Below, one piece after another: positions 27,560-45,826 of a stretch of DNA of 64,000 nucleotides. Each line of letters opens with the position of its first letter. Within the stretch, counting starts at the first letter, position 1. Both the position numbers and the translations under genes were made by a program. The stretch lies in NCBI GenBank assembly GCA_019637335.1, contig JAHBVV010000008.1:124001-188000 (forward strand), written 5' to 3'. The stretch comes from Candidatus Hydrogenedentota bacterium. Its GTDB lineage: Bacteria > Hydrogenedentota > Hydrogenedentia > Hydrogenedentales > JAEUWI01. Below the pieces are notes generated by a model. It was given only the letters and a program-made list of their open reading frames with translations. It searched no databases and was not told the origin of the DNA.

Positions 27560-29542
27560 ATGCGACTTCGGTATTGGGCATTCATCGCGGTTATCCTGCT
27601 AGCCGTCGCGCCGGCTACAGGCGCGCAAACCCACTCCGCGGCGCGCACCTGGAACGAGGAGCTGCTCTCCGCCATCCGGCGGGACCAGGCGCGGCCTACG
27701 GTGCATGCGCGGAACCTGTTCCACGTGTCCATCGCGATGTGGGACGCCTGGGCGGCGTATGATTCCCATGCGCGGAACTATCTCATTGACGAGAAGCGCT
27801 CGGCGGCGGACCCCGACGCGGCGCGATCGGAGGCCTTGAGCTACGCGGCCTACCGGATACTGCGGGTGCGCTTCGCGAACTCGCCCGGTGCGGTGGCGTC
27901 GCTGGCCGCCTTTGACGCCCGGATGGATGCGCTCGGATACGATAGGACCTTTGAGTCGACCGAGGGCGACTCGCCCGCCGCGCTGGGCAATCGGATTGCG
28001 GCGGCGGTGCTGGCCTTCGGACTGGCGGACGGATCCAATGAGCAGGGCGGCTACTCGACCACGAACGGCTATCTGCCCGTGAACGAGCCGCTGGTGGTGG
28101 CGCTCCCGGGCACGGAAATGGTCGATCCGGACCGGTGGCAGCCGCTGGCGCTGGAATTCTTCATCGATCAGGCGGGCATTGTGCTGGGCGGTTTTCCGCC
28201 CCACCTGACGCCCCACTGGACCGACGTAACGCCGTTTTCCCTCCTGGAATCCGACCGCGCGCCCAACACCCACTTCGACCCCGGGCCGCCGCCCTACCTC
28301 CTGGGCGAGGGCAGCGAGGAATTTATCGCGAACACGGTGCACATCATCGAAGTGAGCAGCTACCTCGATCCCGATGATGGCGTCTTCATCGACATTTCGC
28401 CCGGCGCGCGCGGCAACGCGCCGCTGGGGACCTACGACGGTCCGGGCCACGCGCTGAATCCGGTGACGGGTGAACCCTACGCGCCGAACGTCGTGAAGCG
28501 CGGCGACTACACGCGTATCCTCGCGGAATTCTGGGCAGATGGTCCCGATTCCGAGACGCCGCCGGGTCACTGGAACACCGTGGCGAACTACGTCTCCGAT
28601 CACCCGCAGTTTGAGAAGCGGATAGGCGGCGCGGGGCCGGTGGTGGACGATCTGGAATGGGACGTGAAGCTCTATCTGGTGCTGAACGGCGCGTTGCACG
28701 ACGCGGCGATCTGTGCCTGGGGGGCCAAGGGCTTCTACGATACATCCCGGCCCATTTCCCACGTGCGCTATATGGCGGGACTCGGCCAGTCCAGCGAACC
28801 GGAAGCGCCGGACTACCATCCGCTCGGCCTGCCTCTGGTTTCCGGCCTGATCGAACGGATCACGGACGAATCCAGCGCCCGAGGCGAGCGGCACGCTCAT
28901 CTGTCCTTTCATCGTGGAGAACTGGCGGTTTTCGCGTGGCCCGGCGCCCCGTTCAATCCGGAAACCCAGTACAGCGGCGTGCGCTGGCATCGTGCGCGCG
29001 ATTGGGTTCCCTACCAGCGGCCCACGTTTGTCTCGCCGCCGTTCTCCGGCTACGTTTCGGGCCACAGCACCTTCAGCCGCGCCGCGGCGGAGGTTTTAAC
29101 CGCGATCACGGGCTCCGAATACTTCCCCGGCGGCATGGGCGAGTTCTTGGCGCCCCGGAACGATTTCCTGGTGTTCGAAGCGGGTCCGAGTGAAGATGTA
29201 GTCCTCCAGTGGGCCACCTACTACGACGCCGCCGACGAGTCGGGACTTTCCCGCATCTACGGCGGCATCCACCCGCGCCACGACGACATCCCCGGGCGCA
29301 TCATAGGAAGTGAGGTCGGAGCGCGCGCGTGGGCGCATGCGCAGGCGTACATTGGCGTGACGGCGGCTGAGGGCGAAGGCGAGGGTGAAGGGGAAGGTGA
29401 AGGAGAAAAGATCCCGGTCAACTGCCAGGCCCTTCCGGGCGATTCATCCCGCCATCCCGGGAGCGATCTGGCGCTTATCGGATTACTCGTACTTTTTCTC
29501 TCCGGAGTGCGCCTTCGGCGCGAGGAACGCACCGGGTTATGA
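27560..29542 (+). CDS. Vanadium-haloperoxidase/PAP2-type exported protein with C-terminal sorting tail
   Basis: This 660-residue protein starts at ATG 27560, 3 bp after the giant lipoprotein gene, so the two are co-transcribed. A signal peptide (FIAVILLAVAPATGAQ) is present. All three PAP2/vanadium-haloperoxidase motifs are intact: K-x6-R-P as KGFYDTSRP (Lys390), SGH at 500-502 (YVSGHSTFSR), and S-R-x5-H as SRIYGGIH (564-571). The product is thus a vanadate-dependent haloperoxidase or acid-phosphatase relative; the reaction cannot be chosen from sequence. The C-terminus has a GEGEGEGEGEGE linker, then a hydrophobic segment LALIGLLVLFLSG and Arg-rich tail, as in exosortase/rhombosortase-type sorting signals. 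Next to the lipoprotein with a PLA2-like domain, this suggests a surface lipid- or polymer-modifying unit. Confidence 0.88.
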   Translation: MRLRYWAFIAVILLAVAPATGAQTHSAARTWNEELLSAIRRDQARPTVHARNLFHVSIAMWDAWAAYDSHARNYLIDEKRSAADPDAARSEALSYAAYRILRVRFANSPGAVASLAAFDARMDALGYDRTFESTEGDSPAALGNRIAAAVLAFGLADGSNEQGGYSTTNGYLPVNEPLVVALPGTEMVDPDRWQPLALEFFIDQAGIVLGGFPPHLTPHWTDVTPFSLLESDRAPNTHFDPGPPPYLLGEGSEEFIANTVHIIEVSSYLDPDDGVFIDISPGARGNAPLGTYDGPGHALNPVTGEPYAPNVVKRGDYTRILAEFWADGPDSETPPGHWNTVANYVSDHPQFEKRIGGAGPVVDDLEWDVKLYLVLNGALHDAAICAWGAKGFYDTSRPISHVRYMAGLGQSSEPEAPDYHPLGLPLVSGLIERITDESSARGERHAHLSFHRGELAVFAWPGAPFNPETQYSGVRWHRARDWVPYQRPTFVSPPFSGYVSGHSTFSRAAAEVLTAITGSEYFPGGMGEFLAPRNDFLVFEAGPSEDVVLQWATYYDAADESGLSRIYGGIHPRHDDIPGRIIGSEVGARAWAHAQAYIGVTAAEGEGEGEGEGEGEKIPVNCQALPGDSSRHPGSDLALIGLLVLFLSGVRLRREERTGL

Positions 29543-36277: not shown

Positions 36278-37104
36278 CATTTCAGCCGCCTGACGCAGCG
36301 CCTCCCCTGGACCGCACTATTTGCCCACGGATAACGCAGGGCAGCCTCTCGCCGCAACCAAAGATAATGATCACCACGAAGGGCACGAAGACCACGAAGA
36401 AGAGAAGATAGAGAAGGAGTGGTATTCACGCATAGGCGCGATAACGCAGCTGAGTTGGCGCAGGTTCTATATCTGGTTGAAGAGAGAGAACCACGTAACA
36501 CTTTAGCGGAACGAAGTAAAGTGGTCAAACCAGAGCGACTTGCTGAATAAAGGCGACGTGCAACTATGGAGCGCCGGCGGCTCGCCGGCAAATTGCGCCT
36601 CCGGCGCAAGACAGCGTTCTGGAAATGCTACCGTCGCATCAGAAGCCGCGTGTTGTCGGAGGACTGCGGCAACGTGTTCTTGCACCTTCGGTGCAATGCC
36701 GGCGGGCCGCCGGCGCTCCATGCAATCCGGCTCCATTGGTAAGAGCACATACTGCTTCGTACTTCAGATGGCTAAAGTGTTACAGAACCACGAATTCACA
36801 CGAATGGACACGAATGAACATTTGAACCGGGGGACAATATACCGGATCGCCAGAAACATATCGACGGATTTCTTCGGCCCGCTCAAACCAGTCGTCCTCA
36901 CTTGATTTTTCTGTGTTCTTTGCGCTCTTTGTGGCTCGAAATCCAATCCCCGCCTGCCGGGGTTATATTCCGACCGGCAATGGTGTAGAATTGCCCGCTG
37001 TGACCGCCGCCGTCCGGAATTTCGCGCGCGCCCGGGAAGCGAAGCGCGCGATGACGCCGGGCGTCAACCCAGCGGTCCTCCGTAACCTCCAAGGAGCACA
37101 GGTA
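36278..37104. repeat. Repeat-filled intergenic region
   Basis: No gene is seen. Bases 36370-36405 contain several CACGAAG units, and 36787-36815 contain CACGAATTCACACGAATGGACACGAATG, both simple degenerate tandem repeats. A miniature element lies between (36495-36783). At 36911-36935 TTCTTTGCGCTCTTTGTGGCT is another short eroded repeat. A good AAGGAG site at 37091 precedes the next gene. Confidence 0.6.
36495..36783. mobile_element. Miniature inverted-repeat element, family 2, copy 1 (289 bp)
   Basis: The ends are GTAACACTTTAGCGG and, inverted, GGCTAAAGTGTTAC, giving 13-bp terminal inverted repeats. The 8 bases AGAACCAC occur immediately outside both ends (36487-36494 and 36784-36791), as expected of a target-site duplication. 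Inside, GGAGCGCCGGCGGCTCGCCG and GGGCCGCCGGCGCTCCA form a long internal inverted pair, with GCGCCTCCGGCGC and GCACCTTCGGTGC hairpins. No transposase gene. Related copies are at 40649 and 47102. Confidence 0.8.
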
Positions 37105-40100
37105 ATGAGATTTGGTTGTCGTCCCCTTTCTTTTCTGCTCGCGCTGGCCGCATTCGCCGGCGCCGCAAGCGCGCCGGCGCAGTTCCATTTTGAGCCAGGC
37201 GACCATATCGCCTTCCTCGGCAACAACCTGGCCGACCGCATGCAGCATCATGGCTGGCTGGAAAGCTACCTGCACAGTGCGAACCCGGACAAGAGCCTGG
37301 TGATCCGCAACCTGGGCTTCTCCGGCGACCAGGTGGCCCTCCGCCCGCGCAATGAAAACTTCCCCAGCCAGGATTTCTACCTCCGGCACATCGGCGCGGA
37401 CGTAATCTTCGTCTTCTTCGGCTACAACGAGTCCTACAGCCGCGATCCCGAAAAGTTCAAATCTGAGCTGCGCGCGTTCATCGATGAATTGCAGGCCAAC
37501 CAGTACAACGGCGAATCCGCGCCGCGGATCGTGCTCTTCTCCCCCATCGCGCACGAGAATCTGGAATCGCCCAATCTCCCGGACGGCAACGAAAACAACC
37601 TCTGGCTCTCGATCTACACCGACGCCATGGCCCGCGTCGCCGCCGAGAAGGGCGTCGGTTTCGTCGATATCTTTGCGCCCTCCCGCGATCTTTACGCGCA
37701 GAGCGGTGCGCCGCTCACGATAAACGGCGTCCACCCGAACAGCGACGGCAACCGGGCCATCGCGCGGGCCATCCTGGCGGGCCTCGGCCAGCCGGTGGTC
37801 GAGGATCACATCGACACCATCCGCGCGGCCGTGCTGGAGAAAAACTGGTGCTGGTTCAACCGCTACCGCGCCACCGACGGCAACGACGTCTGGGGCAGCC
37901 GCTCCACCCTGACCTTCGTCGATGATCAAACCAATGCCGAAGTGCTCCAGCACGAACTCGTGATGCTCGACGTCATGACCGCGAACCGCGACCAGGTGGT
38001 ATGGAGCGCGATCCGCGGCGAGTCGGTTCCGCCGGACGACAGCAACGTCCCGGACCCTGTGCAGGTCATCACGAATTTCGACAGCCGCCCCAACGGCGGC
38101 AACGGCTCGCTCGACTTCGTCCCCGCCGAGAAGGGCGTCGAAACGCTCACCCTGGCCCCGGGCATGAAGGCCAACCTCTTCGCCTCCGAGGCTCAGTTTC
38201 CCGAACTCGTCAACCCTGTGCAGATGGATGTCGACCCCCAGGGCCGCATCTGGGTCGCGGCGTGGCAAACCTATCCCAAGTGGCAGCCCGACCAGCCCAT
38301 GCTCGACCAGCTCCTCATCCTGCCGGACGACAACCGCGACGGCGTGGCCGACCGGGCCATCACTTTTGACTACGTCCACAACCCCACCGCCTTCACCTTC
38401 TGGAACGGCGGCGTCATCGTCGCCTCCGCGCCCAACATCTGGTTTCTCAAGGACACCGACGGCGACGACAAGGCCGATCACCGCGAGATTCTCTTCAGCG
38501 GCATCGATTCGGCCGACACGCACCACGCCGCGAACAATTTCGACGACGGCCCCGACGGCTACGTCTACTACCAGCGCGGCGTGTTCCACGTGAGCAACGT
38601 GGAGACCCCCTGGTCGGTCGCGCACCTCTCCGGCAAGACCGGCATGTACCGCTTCAACCCGCGCACCTTCCGCTTCGCCTTCCACGCGGACAACTCGCCG
38701 AACCCGCACGGCGGCGATTTCGACTACTGGGGCTACCAGTTCGCCACCGACGCCACCTCCGGCCGCGCATTCCAGGTGCGCATGGACGGCGGGGGCGGCT
38801 ATGAAATGCACGAGCTGCTGGAGAAAACCGTGCGCCCCGTGCCCTCCAGCGGCATCCTCTCCAGCCAGCACTTCCCCGAGGAAAACAACGGCAACTACAT
38901 CATCCTCAACTCCATCGGCTTCCTGGGCATTAAGCAATACACGCTGGAATATAAGGAAGACGGGACCGTCTGGGGTACGGAAACCGACGACCTGCTTGTC
39001 TCCAGCGACGGCAACTTTCGTCCCGCCGATTTCGCCATTGGCGAGGACGGCGCGCTCTACGTCGCCGACTGGGCCAACCCGCTCATCGGGCACATGCAGC
39101 ACAACATTCGCGATCCCAGCCGCGACCACAAGCACGGGCGCGTCTACCGTATCACCGTCGAAGGCCGTCCGCTCGAAGATCCGGCAAAGATCCACGGCGA
39201 GCCCATTCCCGCCCTGCTCGACGTGCTCAAGCACCCGACCAACAGCGTGCGCGTGCGCGCGCGGGCCGAACTCAGCGCGCACCCGACCGAGGCGGTGATC
39301 GCAGCCGCCGCCGAATGGATCAAGCAGTTCGACGGAACCAAAGCCGACGACGCGCACCACCTCCTGGAAGCGCTGTGGCTCCACCAGCAGCACAACGTCG
39401 TCAACGAAGGCCTCCTGACCGTGCTCCTGCACTCGCCGGAGCGCCACGCGCGCCACGCCGCGCAGCGCGTCAAGTACCAGTGGGAAATCGATGGCATGCT
39501 CGGCCGGAACGACGTTGTCGACATGTCGCACCACGCGCACATGGACCACTCCGCCGAGGACGCGGTCCGCGCCTCGCAGGATTTCCGCCGCCAGGCCCCC
39601 TCCCCGAACCCGAAGATGGACGGCGACACCCTGGTAATCCATATTCAGACGCTCAAAGAGCAGATGAAGTACGACCGCAGCGCCTTCGCGGTCGGCCCGG
39701 GCATGAAGGTCCGCCTCGTGTTCAAGAACCCCGACGCCATGGATCACAACCTGATCATGGTGCAGCCCGGCGCGACCGCCGAAGTCGCCATGGCCGCCAT
39801 GATGCTCGGCGCCGAGGGCATCGCCAAGGGCTGGACCCCCGAGAGCAACAAGATCCTCTTCGCGTCCGAGATGCTGTCCATCGGCGAGGAAGAGACGATC
39901 GAGTTCGTGGCCCCGACGGAGAAAGCGATCTACGAATATCTCTGCACCTACCCCGGCCACTGGACGCTGATGAACGGCAAGATGCACGTGGTGGACGACC
40001 CGCTCAAATGGATGGCCGACAACAAGGCCACCACGGTGACCACGGGCGGCGCGCGGGTATTTGTGAAAGAGTGGACCGCCGCCGAACTGAAAGGCGCGCT

Positions 40101-40563
40101 GGGCGGCCTCGATTCCGGGCGCGACCTCGTGCGCGGAAAGCGCATCTTTGAGGAGGCCTCCTGCAACCAGTGCCACCAGACCGGCGAGGGCGACGCCCTC
40201 GTGGGGCCGGATCTCGCCGGCGTTCGCGACCGCCTCGACCCCGCCGCGCTTCTCGTGGAAATCCTCGAACCCTCCCACGTCATCAACGACGCTTACAAGT
40301 CCTGGCAGATCGAGATCGAAACCGACGACCTCCTCGCGGAGACCTCCATGGTCGGCCTCATCGCCGAGGAGACGGACGAATATGTCCGCATCGTCGCCAA
40401 TCCGCTTCAGGATGCCGAAGGCGTGAAGATTCCGAAGGATCAGGTCGGCGAACGGACCGCATCGCCCCTCTCGGCCATGCCCACCGGCCTGCTCAACAGC
40501 TACCAGCGCGGGGAAATCCTGGACCTGATGGCCTATCTGCAATCCCTGAAGGCCGCCGAATAG
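37105..40563 (+). CDS. Exported SGNH hydrolase / PVC dehydrogenase / cupredoxin / cytochrome c fusion
   Basis: This 1152-residue protein starts at ATG 37105 (AAGGAG 8 bp upstream) with signal peptide LSFLLALAAFAGAASAPAQ. Residues 25-260 are SGNH-like (FLGNNLADRMQHHGW, GYNESYSRDP, NGVHPNSDGN), but the usual GDS Ser motif is absent. About 330-760 is the PVC-type dehydrogenase propeller (LTLAPGMKANLFASEAQFPE, NPVQMDVDPQGRIWVAAWQT). About 760-840 is HEAT-like. Residues 850-970 form a cupredoxin with His881, Cys947, His952 and Met956 (CTYPGHWTLM), a full type-1 copper set. CNQCH at 1020-1024 is a haem c site. It is a periplasmic electron-transfer oxidoreductase, probably on sugars or polyols; the substrate is unknown. 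A strong terminator follows. Confidence 0.88.
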   Translation: MRFGCRPLSFLLALAAFAGAASAPAQFHFEPGDHIAFLGNNLADRMQHHGWLESYLHSANPDKSLVIRNLGFSGDQVALRPRNENFPSQDFYLRHIGADVIFVFFGYNESYSRDPEKFKSELRAFIDELQANQYNGESAPRIVLFSPIAHENLESPNLPDGNENNLWLSIYTDAMARVAAEKGVGFVDIFAPSRDLYAQSGAPLTINGVHPNSDGNRAIARAILAGLGQPVVEDHIDTIRAAVLEKNWCWFNRYRATDGNDVWGSRSTLTFVDDQTNAEVLQHELVMLDVMTANRDQVVWSAIRGESVPPDDSNVPDPVQVITNFDSRPNGGNGSLDFVPAEKGVETLTLAPGMKANLFASEAQFPELVNPVQMDVDPQGRIWVAAWQTYPKWQPDQPMLDQLLILPDDNRDGVADRAITFDYVHNPTAFTFWNGGVIVASAPNIWFLKDTDGDDKADHREILFSGIDSADTHHAANNFDDGPDGYVYYQRGVFHVSNVETPWSVAHLSGKTGMYRFNPRTFRFAFHADNSPNPHGGDFDYWGYQFATDATSGRAFQVRMDGGGGYEMHELLEKTVRPVPSSGILSSQHFPEENNGNYIILNSIGFLGIKQYTLEYKEDGTVWGTETDDLLVSSDGNFRPADFAIGEDGALYVADWANPLIGHMQHNIRDPSRDHKHGRVYRITVEGRPLEDPAKIHGEPIPALLDVLKHPTNSVRVRARAELSAHPTEAVIAAAAEWIKQFDGTKADDAHHLLEALWLHQQHNVVNEGLLTVLLHSPERHARHAAQRVKYQWEIDGMLGRNDVVDMSHHAHMDHSAEDAVRASQDFRRQAPSPNPKMDGDTLVIHIQTLKEQMKYDRSAFAVGPGMKVRLVFKNPDAMDHNLIMVQPGATAEVAMAAMMLGAEGIAKGWTPESNKILFASEMLSIGEEETIEFVAPTEKAIYEYLCTYPGHWTLMNGKMHVVDDPLKWMADNKATTVTTGGARVFVKEWTAAELKGALGGLDSGRDLVRGKRIFEEASCNQCHQTGEGDALVGPDLAGVRDRLDPAALLVEILEPSHVINDAYKSWQIEIETDDLLAETSMVGLIAEETDEYVRIVANPLQDAEGVKIPKDQVGERTASPLSAMPTGLLNSYQRGEILDLMAYLQSLKAAE

Positions 40564-40608
40564 GGAGGTTTGGCGCCCGGCCTGACCCATCATTCATCGG
40601 AATACGCA

Positions 40609-41802: not shown

Positions 41803-42921
41803 ATGAGAAGACTGCCCACAATTGCCACACTGACCGCCCTGGTTGCCGGTATCACCGCCGCGCAACCAAAAGACTTCAATGCCTACCCGGAACACATCAC
41901 GCCCTACCTCCAGCGGATGTTCTCCGATGGCCAGGGCAAGTTTGCCTGGCGCGACAATTACCCCGGCGGCGTCGACGCCTGGCGGAACGAAACGCGGGCG
42001 GCGCTGTCCGACCGGATCGGGCTTGGCGCCATTGCGGCGCAGGCGGGCGCCTTCGAACCGCGCGTGATCCTCAGCCCGCCGGACGACATGGGCGGGTACA
42101 CGCGCCAGCAAGGCGCCATTGAAACCGAGCCCTCCGTGACCGTGGCGTTCTGGCTCCTGAAGCCAAAAGGTGACGGCCCCTATCCGCTCGCGCTCCTCCC
42201 GCACGGCCACGATACGGCCGGCCACGACACGCACATTGGCCTGGCGCGCAGCGACGGACACCGCAAGAAAATCGAAGAAGAAGACCGCGATGTGGCGGTG
42301 CAGGCGGTCGAACGCGGCTTCCTCGCCATTGCCCCCGCCACGCGCGGTATGGCCGCCGGCGGCGTGCCGGATCTCCACGACCGCCACGGCAAACGCGACT
42401 GCCGCGCACAGCAGATGCACTGCCTGCTCGCCGGCCGCACGGCGATGGGCGAGCGTGTCTGGGACATGATGCGCCTGATCGACTGGGCGGCGGCGCGGGA
42501 CGATGTGGACGCCTCCCGGATCCTGGTCATGGGCAACTCGGGCGGCGGCATGGTCACCATCTACACCGCCGCCCTCGACACGCGCGTCACCGTCGCCGTG
42601 CCCTCCTGCTCCTTCTGCGCGCTGGCCAGCCCCTCGGGCTACATCTACCATTGCGACTGCAACCTCGTTCCCGGCCTGCTGGATTTCGGCGACCTGGCGG
42701 ATATCGCCGGGCTGACGTCGCCGCGCGCCATGCTGGCGGTAAATGGACGCGAGGATCCGCTCTTCGACCCGAAGGACGTCGAGCGGGCCGCCGGGCGCAC
42801 GAAAGCCATTTACACCGCCGCCGGCGCCCCCGATCGCTTCGATCACCAATGGGGCCACGCCGGCCACCGCTTCTACAGCGACTTGATGTGGCCCTTCGTG
42901 ATGGCGCATATCGGCGAATAG
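41803..42921 (+). CDS. Exported alpha/beta hydrolase (acetyl-xylan-esterase/dienelactone-hydrolase-like)
   Basis: A 372-residue protein starting at ATG 41803 with an AAGGA site upstream and a signal peptide (LPTIATLTALVAGITAAQ). The alpha/beta hydrolase triad is visible: the nucleophile elbow GNSGGG around residue 246 (ILVMGNSGGGMVTIYTAALD), Asp in NGREDPLFDP, and His in WGHAGHRFYS. PYPLALLPHGHDTAGH gives the oxyanion-strand HGH. It resembles carbohydrate-esterase-like hydrolases of large polysaccharide degraders (xylan or pectin deacetylation), which fits the neighbouring sulfatase and mannosidase. The substrate is inferred only. The PQQ-propeller gene follows on the same strand after 126 bp. 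Confidence 0.85.
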   Translation: MRRLPTIATLTALVAGITAAQPKDFNAYPEHITPYLQRMFSDGQGKFAWRDNYPGGVDAWRNETRAALSDRIGLGAIAAQAGAFEPRVILSPPDDMGGYTRQQGAIETEPSVTVAFWLLKPKGDGPYPLALLPHGHDTAGHDTHIGLARSDGHRKKIEEEDRDVAVQAVERGFLAIAPATRGMAAGGVPDLHDRHGKRDCRAQQMHCLLAGRTAMGERVWDMMRLIDWAAARDDVDASRILVMGNSGGGMVTIYTAALDTRVTVAVPSCSFCALASPSGYIYHCDCNLVPGLLDFGDLADIAGLTSPRAMLAVNGREDPLFDPKDVERAAGRTKAIYTAAGAPDRFDHQWGHAGHRFYSDLMWPFVMAHIGE

Positions 42922-43047
42922 GGGCTGGGCCGCGGCCTGGAAAACCTTGCACCGCCCCCGTGTTCCCGGGCATGCTGATGGCGCAGGCAGCCGTGCTTTC
43001 GCCCGCATGAAGTATGAATCGATACAACCAGAAAACGAGGTGCGCCC

Positions 43048-44358
43048 ATGGACCGACACAAGACCCCCGCCCGCGCCGCGCGCGGCATCACCCGCCGTAC
43101 GCTGCCCGCGCTTGCCCTGATCGCCACCATCGCGCTCGGAGCGGGCGCTTCCGACTGGACCCAGTTCCGCGGCCCCGGACAGGATGGCATTGCGAACGCC
43201 ACCGGCCTCCCCGCCACCTGGGACGACACGGCCAACATCGCCTGGAAGACGCCGCTCCCCGGACCGGGCGGATCCAGCCCAATCGTCGTGGGCGATCGTG
43301 TGTTTCTCACGTCTTATTCGGGCTATGCCGAATCCATCGAGAATCCGGGCAATATGGAGGATCTTATGCGCCACGTGGTCTGCCTGGACCGCGCCACAGG
43401 CAAAGTGATCTGGCAGAAGGATTTCAAGGCGAAGATGCCCGAATCGGCCTATGTTGGCGGCAACAACACCCGCCACGGCTACGCCAGCAGCACCCCAACC
43501 AGCGACGGCGAATCCCTTTTCGTCTTCTTCGGCAAGTCGGGGGTGTTCAGCTTCGATCTGGACGGCAACGAGCGCTGGACCGCGGACGTGGGCGAAGGCA
43601 CGGATGGCTGGGGCTCCGCCACGTCGCCCGTGCTGCACAACAACCTCCTGATCGTGAACGCGGGGGTGGAGAGCGGCGCGCTTATCGCACTGGACAAGGC
43701 CACCGGCCAGGCTGTCTGGCGCGCGGGCGACGTCAGCCGCACCTGGGCCACTCCGGTCCTCGTCGAGGCCGGCGGACGCACCGAGGCGGTCCTGAACCTT
43801 CCCGGAAAAGTCGCCGCGTACGACGCCGAAACCGGCAAAGCGCTTTGGCATTGTGAGGGAATTCCCGACAGCTACGTTTGCCCCTCCGTCATTGCGCACG
43901 ATGGCGTTGTGTACGCCATTGGCGGGCGCCGCAGCCAGGTAATGGCGGTGCGCGCGGGCGGCAGCGGCGACGTGACGGGTTCGCACATTCTCTGGCGCAC
44001 GGAAAAGGGCAACAACGTCACTTCGGCGGTACTCGTGGACAATCATCTCTACTGGTTCCACGAATCCCGCGGCGTGGCTTACTGCGCGAATGCCGCCACG
44101 GGCGAGATCGTGTACGAAGAAAACCTCGAGCCGAGGCCCGGGCTGATTTACGCCTCCATTACGGTGGCGGACGGCAAGCTTTACGCCACCTCGCAGGACA
44201 ACGGAACCTACGTGGTCGCGGCGAAGCCGGAATTCGAGCAAATCGCCGTGAACACCTTCGCCAGCGACTCTTCGCGCGTCAACGCGTCGATCGCGGTGGA
44301 TCGGGGACAGCTCCTGCTGCGGACCGACCGGGCAATCTACTGCATCGGCAACAAATAA
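43048..44358 (+). CDS. Exported PQQ-like beta-propeller protein
   Basis: A 436-residue protein starting at ATG 43048 with CGAGG 7 bp upstream. The N-terminus GITRRTLPALALIATIALGA resembles a Tat or Sec signal, and mature sequence opens SDWTQFRGPGQDGIANATGL, the standard opening of PQQ_2-type propellers in planctomycetes and relatives. Blades repeat G-x-x-V(F/Y)L(T/A) and A-x-x-A-x-T-G-K-x-x-W patterns (LDRATGKVIWQKDFK, LDKATGQAVWRAG, YDAETGKALWHCEG). PQQ-binding residues cannot be confirmed, so a structural or sensor propeller is possible. The gene is convergent with the sulfatase and shares a hairpin terminator. Confidence 0.9.
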   Translation: MDRHKTPARAARGITRRTLPALALIATIALGAGASDWTQFRGPGQDGIANATGLPATWDDTANIAWKTPLPGPGGSSPIVVGDRVFLTSYSGYAESIENPGNMEDLMRHVVCLDRATGKVIWQKDFKAKMPESAYVGGNNTRHGYASSTPTSDGESLFVFFGKSGVFSFDLDGNERWTADVGEGTDGWGSATSPVLHNNLLIVNAGVESGALIALDKATGQAVWRAGDVSRTWATPVLVEAGGRTEAVLNLPGKVAAYDAETGKALWHCEGIPDSYVCPSVIAHDGVVYAIGGRRSQVMAVRAGGSGDVTGSHILWRTEKGNNVTSAVLVDNHLYWFHESRGVAYCANAATGEIVYEENLEPRPGLIYASITVADGKLYATSQDNGTYVVAAKPEFEQIAVNTFASDSSRVNASIAVDRGQLLLRTDRAIYCIGNK

Positions 44359-44380
44359 CCCCTGCACGCAAAAGCATCAG

Positions 44381-44420
44381 CGCGGGCGGACCGGATTCTC
44401 TCCAGTCCGCCCGCGTTTCT
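44381..44420. terminator. Bidirectional terminator between convergent genes
   Basis: CGCGGGCGGAC (44381-44391) pairs with GTCCGCCCGCG (44405-44415), followed by TTTCTC. It lies between the convergent PQQ-propeller and sulfatase genes. Confidence 0.75.
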
Positions 44421-45826
44421 CATAACCCGAAATCCGCGTCGCTCGCGGGAAACCAGCGCGCCAAATCCGCCTTCACCGACGCCAATTCATCCCGGCCCGC
44501 CAGGTTCGTCCACTCCAGCGGATCCGCATCGTGATCGTAGAGCTCCTCGCTGCCGTCGGCATACCGGATATAACGCCACCGCGCGGATCGCGCCGAATGG
44601 TTGCCTCGGCCATAGGTCGTCACCGCCGGGCGTTCCCACGCCGCCGCGGGATCCTCAAGGAGCGGTCGCAGGCTCCGCCCGTCGAGCCCGTCCCGCGCCG
44701 GCAGCCCGCACAAGTCGGTCAGGGTCGGGTAAATGTCGATAAGCCCCACCGGCGTCGCGCAGCGCTGTCCCGCCGGTATGCCCGACCCCGCGAAAATCAT
44801 CCCGTTCTTCGTGGCCTCTTCCCACAGCGCGAACTTGCGCCAGTGCAATTTCTCGCCCAGGTGCCAGCCATGGTCCGACCACAGCACCACCAACGTGTCG
44901 TCCCGGTGCGGGCTCGCGTCCAGCGCGTCCAGCACATGCCCCACCTGCGCATCGGCAAAGCTGATGCTCGCCAGATACCCCTGCACCGCCCGGCGCCACT
45001 GATCGTGTTCCACCACCCGCTTGTGATCCGAGTCCGTCCGCGCCATCGCCCGCCCCGCCGCCGGCACGTCGTCCAGATCGTCCGCCCGCGTCTCCGGCAG
45101 CGTCACCTCGTCCAGCGGATACATATCAAAGTACTTTTTCGGCGCGTACCACGGCAGGTGCGGGCGAAATATCCCGCACGCCAGGAAAAACGGCTGTTCC
45201 CGCGGCTTCGACAGCTCCGCCGACACCCAAGCCGCGACCTGGCCGTCCCCCATGGCCGAATCGTCTACGTCCAGCGGCCCCCAGTCAAAGTGGCGGCTCG
45301 CCGCGCCCCCGCCCTGCCAGGGGATCGAAGGCGGATTCGGGTCATCCGGTTTGCAGGTGTCCTGCGACGGCCAGTATGCCTGCCACGACGCGGGATGCTG
45401 GAAGGGACCATGGTAGATCTTGCCCGCGCCCCGCGCCGAATACCCGTTCGCCATGAAATGCTGCGAAAGCGTGGCCGCCTCCGACAACACCGGGCTCTTC
45501 CGCCAGTCCTGATCGTTCATATAGACGCCCGAACGCGACGGTATGATGCCCGTCATCAGCGCCGCGCGCGACGCATTGCAGAGCGGCGCGGGGCAATACG
45601 TGTGCGTGAACGCCGTGCCCCGCGCGGCAAGCCGGTCCAGGTTCGGCGTCTTCACGTCCGGGTGGCCGCCCTGGTAGCCCGTCCAGTCGTTCAGATCATC
45701 CATGGAAATGAACAGCACATTCCGCGGACGGCCCGCGCCGCCCGAAGCCGCCCCGCCGCCCAACACCAACGCGCCCGCCGCCGCTGACATCAGAAACGCC
45801 CGCCGTGATTGCCCTGGATTGCTCAT
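44420..45826 (-). CDS. Sulfatase with C-x-A-S-R active site (iduronate-2-sulfatase-like)
   Basis: This 468-residue protein starts at ATG 45826, with GAGGAG 6 bp upstream. A twin-arginine signal is present (SRRAFLMSAAAGALVLGG), so it is probably exported folded. Metal-site motif NVLFISMDDLNDWTGYQGGH is near the N-terminus. The formylglycine site reads CNASRAALMTG: Cys is present, but the usual Pro after x is Ala, a C-x-A-x-R variant that anaerobic-type maturases (anSME) can accept. SDHGWHLGEKLHWRKFALWE carries the second metal and substrate Lys/His set. It hydrolyses sulfate esters, probably on algal or host polysaccharides. It is convergent with the PQQ gene. No maturase gene was found in the window. 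Confidence 0.9.
   Translation of the reverse strand: MSNPGQSRRAFLMSAAAGALVLGGGAASGGAGRPRNVLFISMDDLNDWTGYQGGHPDVKTPNLDRLAARGTAFTHTYCPAPLCNASRAALMTGIIPSRSGVYMNDQDWRKSPVLSEAATLSQHFMANGYSARGAGKIYHGPFQHPASWQAYWPSQDTCKPDDPNPPSIPWQGGGAASRHFDWGPLDVDDSAMGDGQVAAWVSAELSKPREQPFFLACGIFRPHLPWYAPKKYFDMYPLDEVTLPETRADDLDDVPAAGRAMARTDSDHKRVVEHDQWRRAVQGYLASISFADAQVGHVLDALDASPHRDDTLVVLWSDHGWHLGEKLHWRKFALWEEATKNGMIFAGSGIPAGQRCATPVGLIDIYPTLTDLCGLPARDGLDGRSLRPLLEDPAAAWERPAVTTYGRGNHSARSARWRYIRYADGSEELYDHDADPLEWTNLAGRDELASVKADLARWFPASDADFGL

Follow-up and report, generated by a model that had tools for sequence, protein, structure and literature searches.

The window, a stretch of 64,000 nucleotides from a Candidatus Hydrogenedentota bacterium, carries at 37105-40563 a gene whose product belongs to a widespread, uncharacterised propeller-copper family, of which it is a four-part variant specific to one lineage. 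We read this product as a secreted periplasmic redox protein, in which the propeller would oxidise a sugar or glycoside and electrons would pass to copper and then to haem; we give this reading a probability of roughly 45%, i.e., somewhat below an even chance. The preliminary description had recognised four parts in a single protein, namely, SGNH-like, PVC-type propeller, blue-copper, and cytochrome c parts. Consistently, we found an intact open reading frame of 1152 amino acids (aa), with all four domain matches above their cut-offs. The features are as follows.

37105..40563, + strand: whole gene, 1152 aa; ATG at 37105, TAG stop at 40561-40563
37091..37096, + strand: likely ribosome-binding site AAGGAG, eight bases 5' of the ATG (sequence)
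37105..37179, + strand: signal peptide-like N-terminus, residues 1-25 (MRFGCRPLSFLLALAAFAGAASAPA) (sequence; modelled helix at 8-18)
37192..37812, + strand: SGNH-like domain, residues 30-236, catalytic Ser and Asp replaced (Pfam, solved-structure profile matches, alignments)
37219..37230, + strand: SGNH block I GNNL (G39-L42), Asn in place of Ser (alignments)
37723..37734, + strand: SGNH block V N207-G-V-H210, Asp replaced by Asn, His kept (alignments)
38122..39174, + strand: beta-propeller, residues 340-690, TIGR02604/DUF7133, GSDH-like fold (domain scans, model and fold search)
38521..38526, + strand: invariant His pair H473-H474; H474 aligns to the GSDH catalytic His (alignments)
39175..39492, + strand: helical HEAT-like segment, residues 691-796 (AF2 model secondary structure)
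39493..39618, + strand: poorly ordered His/Met-rich linker (VVDMSHHAHMDHSAED), residues 797-838 (model, composition)
39619..39993, + strand: cupredoxin, residues 839-963, auracyanin/azurin-like type 1 copper (Pfam, sequence and fold comparison)
39745..39747, + strand: copper ligand H881 (sequence, alignment)
39943..39972, + strand: copper ligands C947, H952, and M956 (C-x4-H-x3-M) (sequence, alignment)
40117..40551, + strand: TIGR02603 haem-binding domain, residues 1005-1149 (NCBIfam scan)
40162..40176, + strand: haem c site C1020-N-Q-C-H1024; candidate axial ligand M1125 (sequence, alignment)

More specifically, Pfam and NCBIfam scans returned Lipase_GDSL_2 (PF13472) at residues 48-218 (56.9 bits; cut-off, 32.9), DUF7133/TIGR02604 (PVC-type heme-binding CxxCH protein) at 342-560 (172.8 bits; cut-off, 122.2), Copper-bind (PF00127) at 850-962 (35.3 bits; cut-off, 21.2), and the TIGR02603 haem domain, with its CxxCH present, at 1007-1147 (73.1 bits; cut-off, 68.15). 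The HEAT-like helical segment at ~691-796 was absent from the earlier list of parts. A long open reading frame on the opposite strand (36898-40593) overlaps the gene; we regard it as a shadow, because the + strand protein has orthologues that are 53 to 79% identical over its domains. Judging by its N-terminus, the protein is probably exported.

Both metal sites, which had been described as intact, are indeed so, and they are conserved: the copper ligands are retained in 46 of 47 aligned sequences, and CxxCH is present in all eight rows that include the haem domain, as is the candidate axial Met1125. The residue numbers given earlier (H881, C947, H952, M956, and C1020-NQ-CH) are all exact, and the conserved loss of ligands in relatives that the preliminary description had set against its own proposal did not occur. 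The His-Cys-His-Met ligand set with azurin spacing identifies a type 1 blue copper site, and the cupredoxin is closest to auracyanin and azurin in both sequence and fold. Azurin proper was rejected as an assignment (TIGR02695 equivalog, 35.8 bits; cut-off, 105.1). Upstream of the cupredoxin, the linker encoded at 39493-39618 is rich in His and Met, such residues making up 12 to 18% of it in five of seven aligned Hydrogenedentota rows (background, 6%), with a high content in the corresponding linker of locus L065 as well; it possibly serves in copper loading. The genome carries cytochrome c assembly genes.

To place this architecture, we drew on 259 relatives from one scan, of which the best 80 come, by record titles, from about eight phyla (Hydrogenedentota, Planctomycetota, Verrucomicrobiota, Acidobacteriota, Gemmatimonadota, Bacteroidota, Balneolota, and Rhodothermota). 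The search for homologues with the same part order that had been proposed earlier found them in Hydrogenedentota orthologues (53 to 79% identical, sharing the domain order in all cases with a complete contig) as well as in a single Phycisphaeraceae protein. Most of the best 80 relatives comprise SGNH domain, propeller, helical segment, and copper domain, and their chain ends right after the cupredoxin, with no haem. Among these best 80 of 259, haem domains are seen in members of the Hydrogenedentota clade plus two proteins from Phycisphaeraceae, a distribution that needs two changes on the tree when truncated rows are left out; the haem was added late within one lineage, and the propeller-copper core spans several phyla. 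One of the two Phycisphaeraceae haem proteins (L083) carries its haem directly after the propeller, without copper, and in L081 the copper domain is followed by a BNR_4 propeller, haem being absent. About eight Verrucomicrobiota have an SGNH-propeller gene devoid of copper; there, a cupredoxin lies on the next gene, at the C-terminus of an SGL (SMP-30/gluconolactonase-like) propeller (L084 10404-11699, L121 10427-11791, and others). Since haem thus occurs without copper, copper without haem, and copper on a neighbouring gene, the copper and haem modules are exchangeable electron carriers on a constant core and form no obligatory wire. About twelve TIGR02604 loci in the protein's own genome score over the cut-off; all six paralogues examined over their full length possess CxxCH at the C-terminal end without any blue-copper motif, which suggests that the copper domain is special to the protein studied here.

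The preliminary description had also proposed that electrons could pass from substrate to copper to haem within one chain. The full model (pLDDT 84, pTM 0.69) has low confidence in the linker at 801-824 and in that between copper and haem (964-1004, especially around 978-1004), so that a fixed copper-haem distance cannot be claimed. Two loci whose records are labelled Planctomycetota hold reading frames of 1870 aa (L053 8001-13487, L054 690-6161), in which ~700 unannotated residues separate the cupredoxin from the haem domain; in the tree, L053 falls inside the Hydrogenedentota clade despite its label. An intramolecular wire is plausible in our protein, but a fixed copper-haem relay is not general in the family: the majority of relatives possess copper and lack haem, one shows the reverse, and the ~700-residue spacer occurs in two.

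The suggestion that the SGNH-like part lacks the usual Ser and may have lost hydrolase activity held up on both counts. Asn41 (GNNL) stands in place of the Ser and Asn207 in place of the Asp; the aligned Hydrogenedentota orthologues also lack the Ser, with Ala, Asn, or Gly at this position. Across a 47-sequence alignment, the Ser column reads A in 18, G in 13, S in 10, T in 4, and N in 1 of its rows, and the Asp column holds Asn in 45 of 46. Loss of the triad most likely excludes a classical hydrolase and led us to reject the simple reading of an active SGNH esterase. An enzyme deacylating a substrate for the propeller would fit the above-cut-off Pfam GDSL score, the retained Gly74 (block II), Asn108 (block III), and His210 (block V), and the Ser found at the nucleophile position in 10 of 46 relatives, but with both triad residues replaced here and the Asp replaced nearly throughout, we consider it very improbable. 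The pocket motifs GN.L.DR, GD, GYNES, and NG.H are strongly conserved among the relatives although the triad is lost; therefore, the domain likely serves some purpose other than hydrolysis, e.g., holding the substrate. Elsewhere in the same genome (L145, C38:52501-57759), an SGNH gene that likewise lacks the triad Ser and Asp lies directly 5' of a TIGR02604/TIGR02603 gene without copper, and such a split SGNH/propeller pair recurs in related genomes. Because separate SGNH and propeller genes adjoin in this and several related genomes, the arrangement supports the view that the two domains are functionally connected.

Conservation within the protein is highest in the propeller (mean column conservation of 0.78 versus 0.61 to 0.72 for the other parts, disordered linkers aside). 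Pocket-type residues invariant among 47 relatives are H473, H474, H535, H663, H666, N533, K610, R577, R639, R669, and R673, five of which are His. Modelled alone (pTM 0.87), it gave HHIP as the top match of a fold search, followed by soluble PQQ glucose dehydrogenase (1cq1, 1qbi), with further matches to pyranose dehydrogenase 6jt5 and PQQ sugar dehydrogenase 3a9g (E 1e-11 to 3e-9, TMq about 0.6). As modelled, the propeller has a fold of the GSDH (PQQ sugar dehydrogenase) class. The Pfam scan gave no match of the 1152-aa protein to GSDH (PF07995) at E up to 1, and the propeller profile, compared with sequences of solved structures, found short NHL-repeat matches only, so the link to sugar dehydrogenases rests on fold and not on sequence. 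A weak hhalign alignment to GSDH relatives (6.7% probability) places H474 at the catalytic His, N533 at the Asn of the "RNP" motif, Pro532 at its Arg, and R639 near Arg406/408 of soluble glucose dehydrogenase (sGDH), the placement of the Lys being insecure. We take the PQQ-binding residues of sGDH to be His144, Arg228, Asn229, Lys377, and Arg406/408; the position of Arg228 is that occupied by Pro532. Canonical PqqE was not found in seven Hydrogenedentota genomes. Given the replaced PQQ-site Arg and no canonical PqqE, "dehydrogenase" stays a name for these proteins; PQQ use by the propeller is doubtful, and a dehydrogenase activity is plausible from its modelled fold.

HHIP has the GSDH fold without being an enzyme. 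Its rank as best fold match, together with the lost PQQ-site Arg, the missing PqqE, the lost SGNH triad, and the linker rich in His and Met that adjoins the cupredoxin in most Hydrogenedentota members, would suit a non-catalytic protein, whose propeller and SGNH domain bind a ligand or polysaccharide and whose copper and haem act only as an electron shuttle or extracytoplasmic copper store. We hold this to be unlikely, if well worth keeping in view, because the propeller is precisely the most conserved part and has many invariant charged and His residues. Nor do we favour a reversed flow, by which the respiratory chain would supply electrons to the haem, and these would move on to copper and finally to a reductase site within the propeller, by analogy with cytochrome c nitrous oxide reductase. 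Nitrous oxide reductases have a CuA cupredoxin (two Cys) and a seven-His CuZ propeller, and they are the top Foldseek matches of our full model; the five invariant propeller His and a domain order equal to that of cNosZ point the same way. However, these matches align with an rmsd of about 28 A and a TM of about 0.3, showing that the domain arrangement differs, and a search with the isolated propeller points to the GSDH class, with N2OR absent from its 50 best matches. With a single Cys947, the cupredoxin is type 1 and not CuA, and the SGL and ThuA neighbours in relatives point to sugar chemistry; membership in nitrous oxide reductase was rejected on the single Cys and the five invariant His, and we consider reversed flow rather improbable.

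A sugar-related role is suggested by gene neighbourhoods in other genomes, i.e., by the SGL-cupredoxin gene directly downstream in Verrucomicrobiota and by a ThuA gene no more than 700 bp away in 24 of 48 loci from relatives with flanks of 1.4 kb or longer, several phyla being represented. Within the window, neither ThuA nor SGL adjoins the gene, which stands apart between a glycosyltransferase upstream and a small opposite-strand gene downstream; the closest ThuA relative in its genome (69%) lies on another contig. Five Acidobacteriota/Gemmatimonadota loci (L063, L068, L069, L070, and L115) share a conserved run of ThuA, SGNH-propeller-copper, a ~300-aa protein, and UPF0261. Genes in the vicinity (41803-45826) encode an esterase-like alpha/beta hydrolase, a PQQ_2/BamB-like propeller, and a sulfatase on the other strand; elsewhere in the window lies a protein matching vanadium chloroperoxidase second domain and PAP2 (27560-29542).

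Under the sugar-oxidation reading that we prefer, the propeller would be the working core, most likely oxidising a sugar or glycoside, and the inactive SGNH domain and helical segment would probably serve as a scaffold or substrate-holding part. Electrons would leave the propeller site in one-electron transfers to the type 1 copper and, in Hydrogenedentota, pass on to the C-terminal c-type haem and from there to a soluble cytochrome or oxidase. For this reading, we counted the propeller fold matches, the invariant pocket residues, the conserved copper ligands and CxxCH, the SGL and ThuA neighbours, the haem without copper in L083, and the cytochrome c assembly genes; against it, we counted the weak hhalign result, Pro532, the missing canonical PqqE, HHIP as best fold match, the lack of adjacent ThuA or SGL in the window, and the fact that no activity for the family was found in the literature. 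A bolder generalisation, which we think has little chance of proving correct, would see cross-phylum periplasmic oxidoreductases whose sugar-dehydrogenase-type propeller does without PQQ and is permanently wired to blue copper, the carriers being swapped, moved to a lactonase-like neighbour, or, as in our protein, placed in series.

The TIGR02604 class, with about a dozen members in this genome, is often named "dehydrogenase" with no activity on record in the literature that we found. The present protein contains a pair of coloured electron acceptors of its own, blue copper and haem c, so an electron-donating substrate would reveal itself by a colour change; this would make it, along with its copper-only relatives, a good entry point to the function of the family. 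The lactonase-cupredoxin partner gene offers a concrete hypothesis, namely, that an aldose is oxidised to its lactone.

We found no paper on the SGNH-propeller-copper-haem architecture. An azurin survey records azurin genes in Verrucomicrobia and, as far as the terms searched show, says nothing about fused forms (PMC8779525). Auracyanin and azurin share with our protein the cupredoxin fold (TM 0.88 to auracyanin 6kol) and the four-ligand type 1 site with azurin spacing, whereas here the cupredoxin is embedded in a large protein and scores below the azurin equivalog cut-off. With the PQQ glucose, sorbosone, and pyranose dehydrogenases (GSDH PF07995, AA12), our protein has in common the propeller fold, a His where the catalytic one lies, the RNP Asn, and an Arg near the last blade; in contrast, it lacks a Pfam GSDH match, has Pro for the RNP Arg, and comes from a genome in which no canonical PqqE was found. 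cNosZ, in which NosZ is fused to a cytochrome c domain feeding electrons to the active site (PMC8139620), likewise has a propeller followed by a cupredoxin and a C-terminal c haem, and the present protein differs in its type 1 copper instead of CuA, its other class of propeller, and its extra SGNH domain. With PVC-type heme-binding CxxCH proteins (TIGR02604 plus TIGR02603), including the paralogues in its own genome, it shares the propeller and the C-terminal CxxCH haem domain, to which it adds an N-terminal SGNH part and a domain for type 1 copper.
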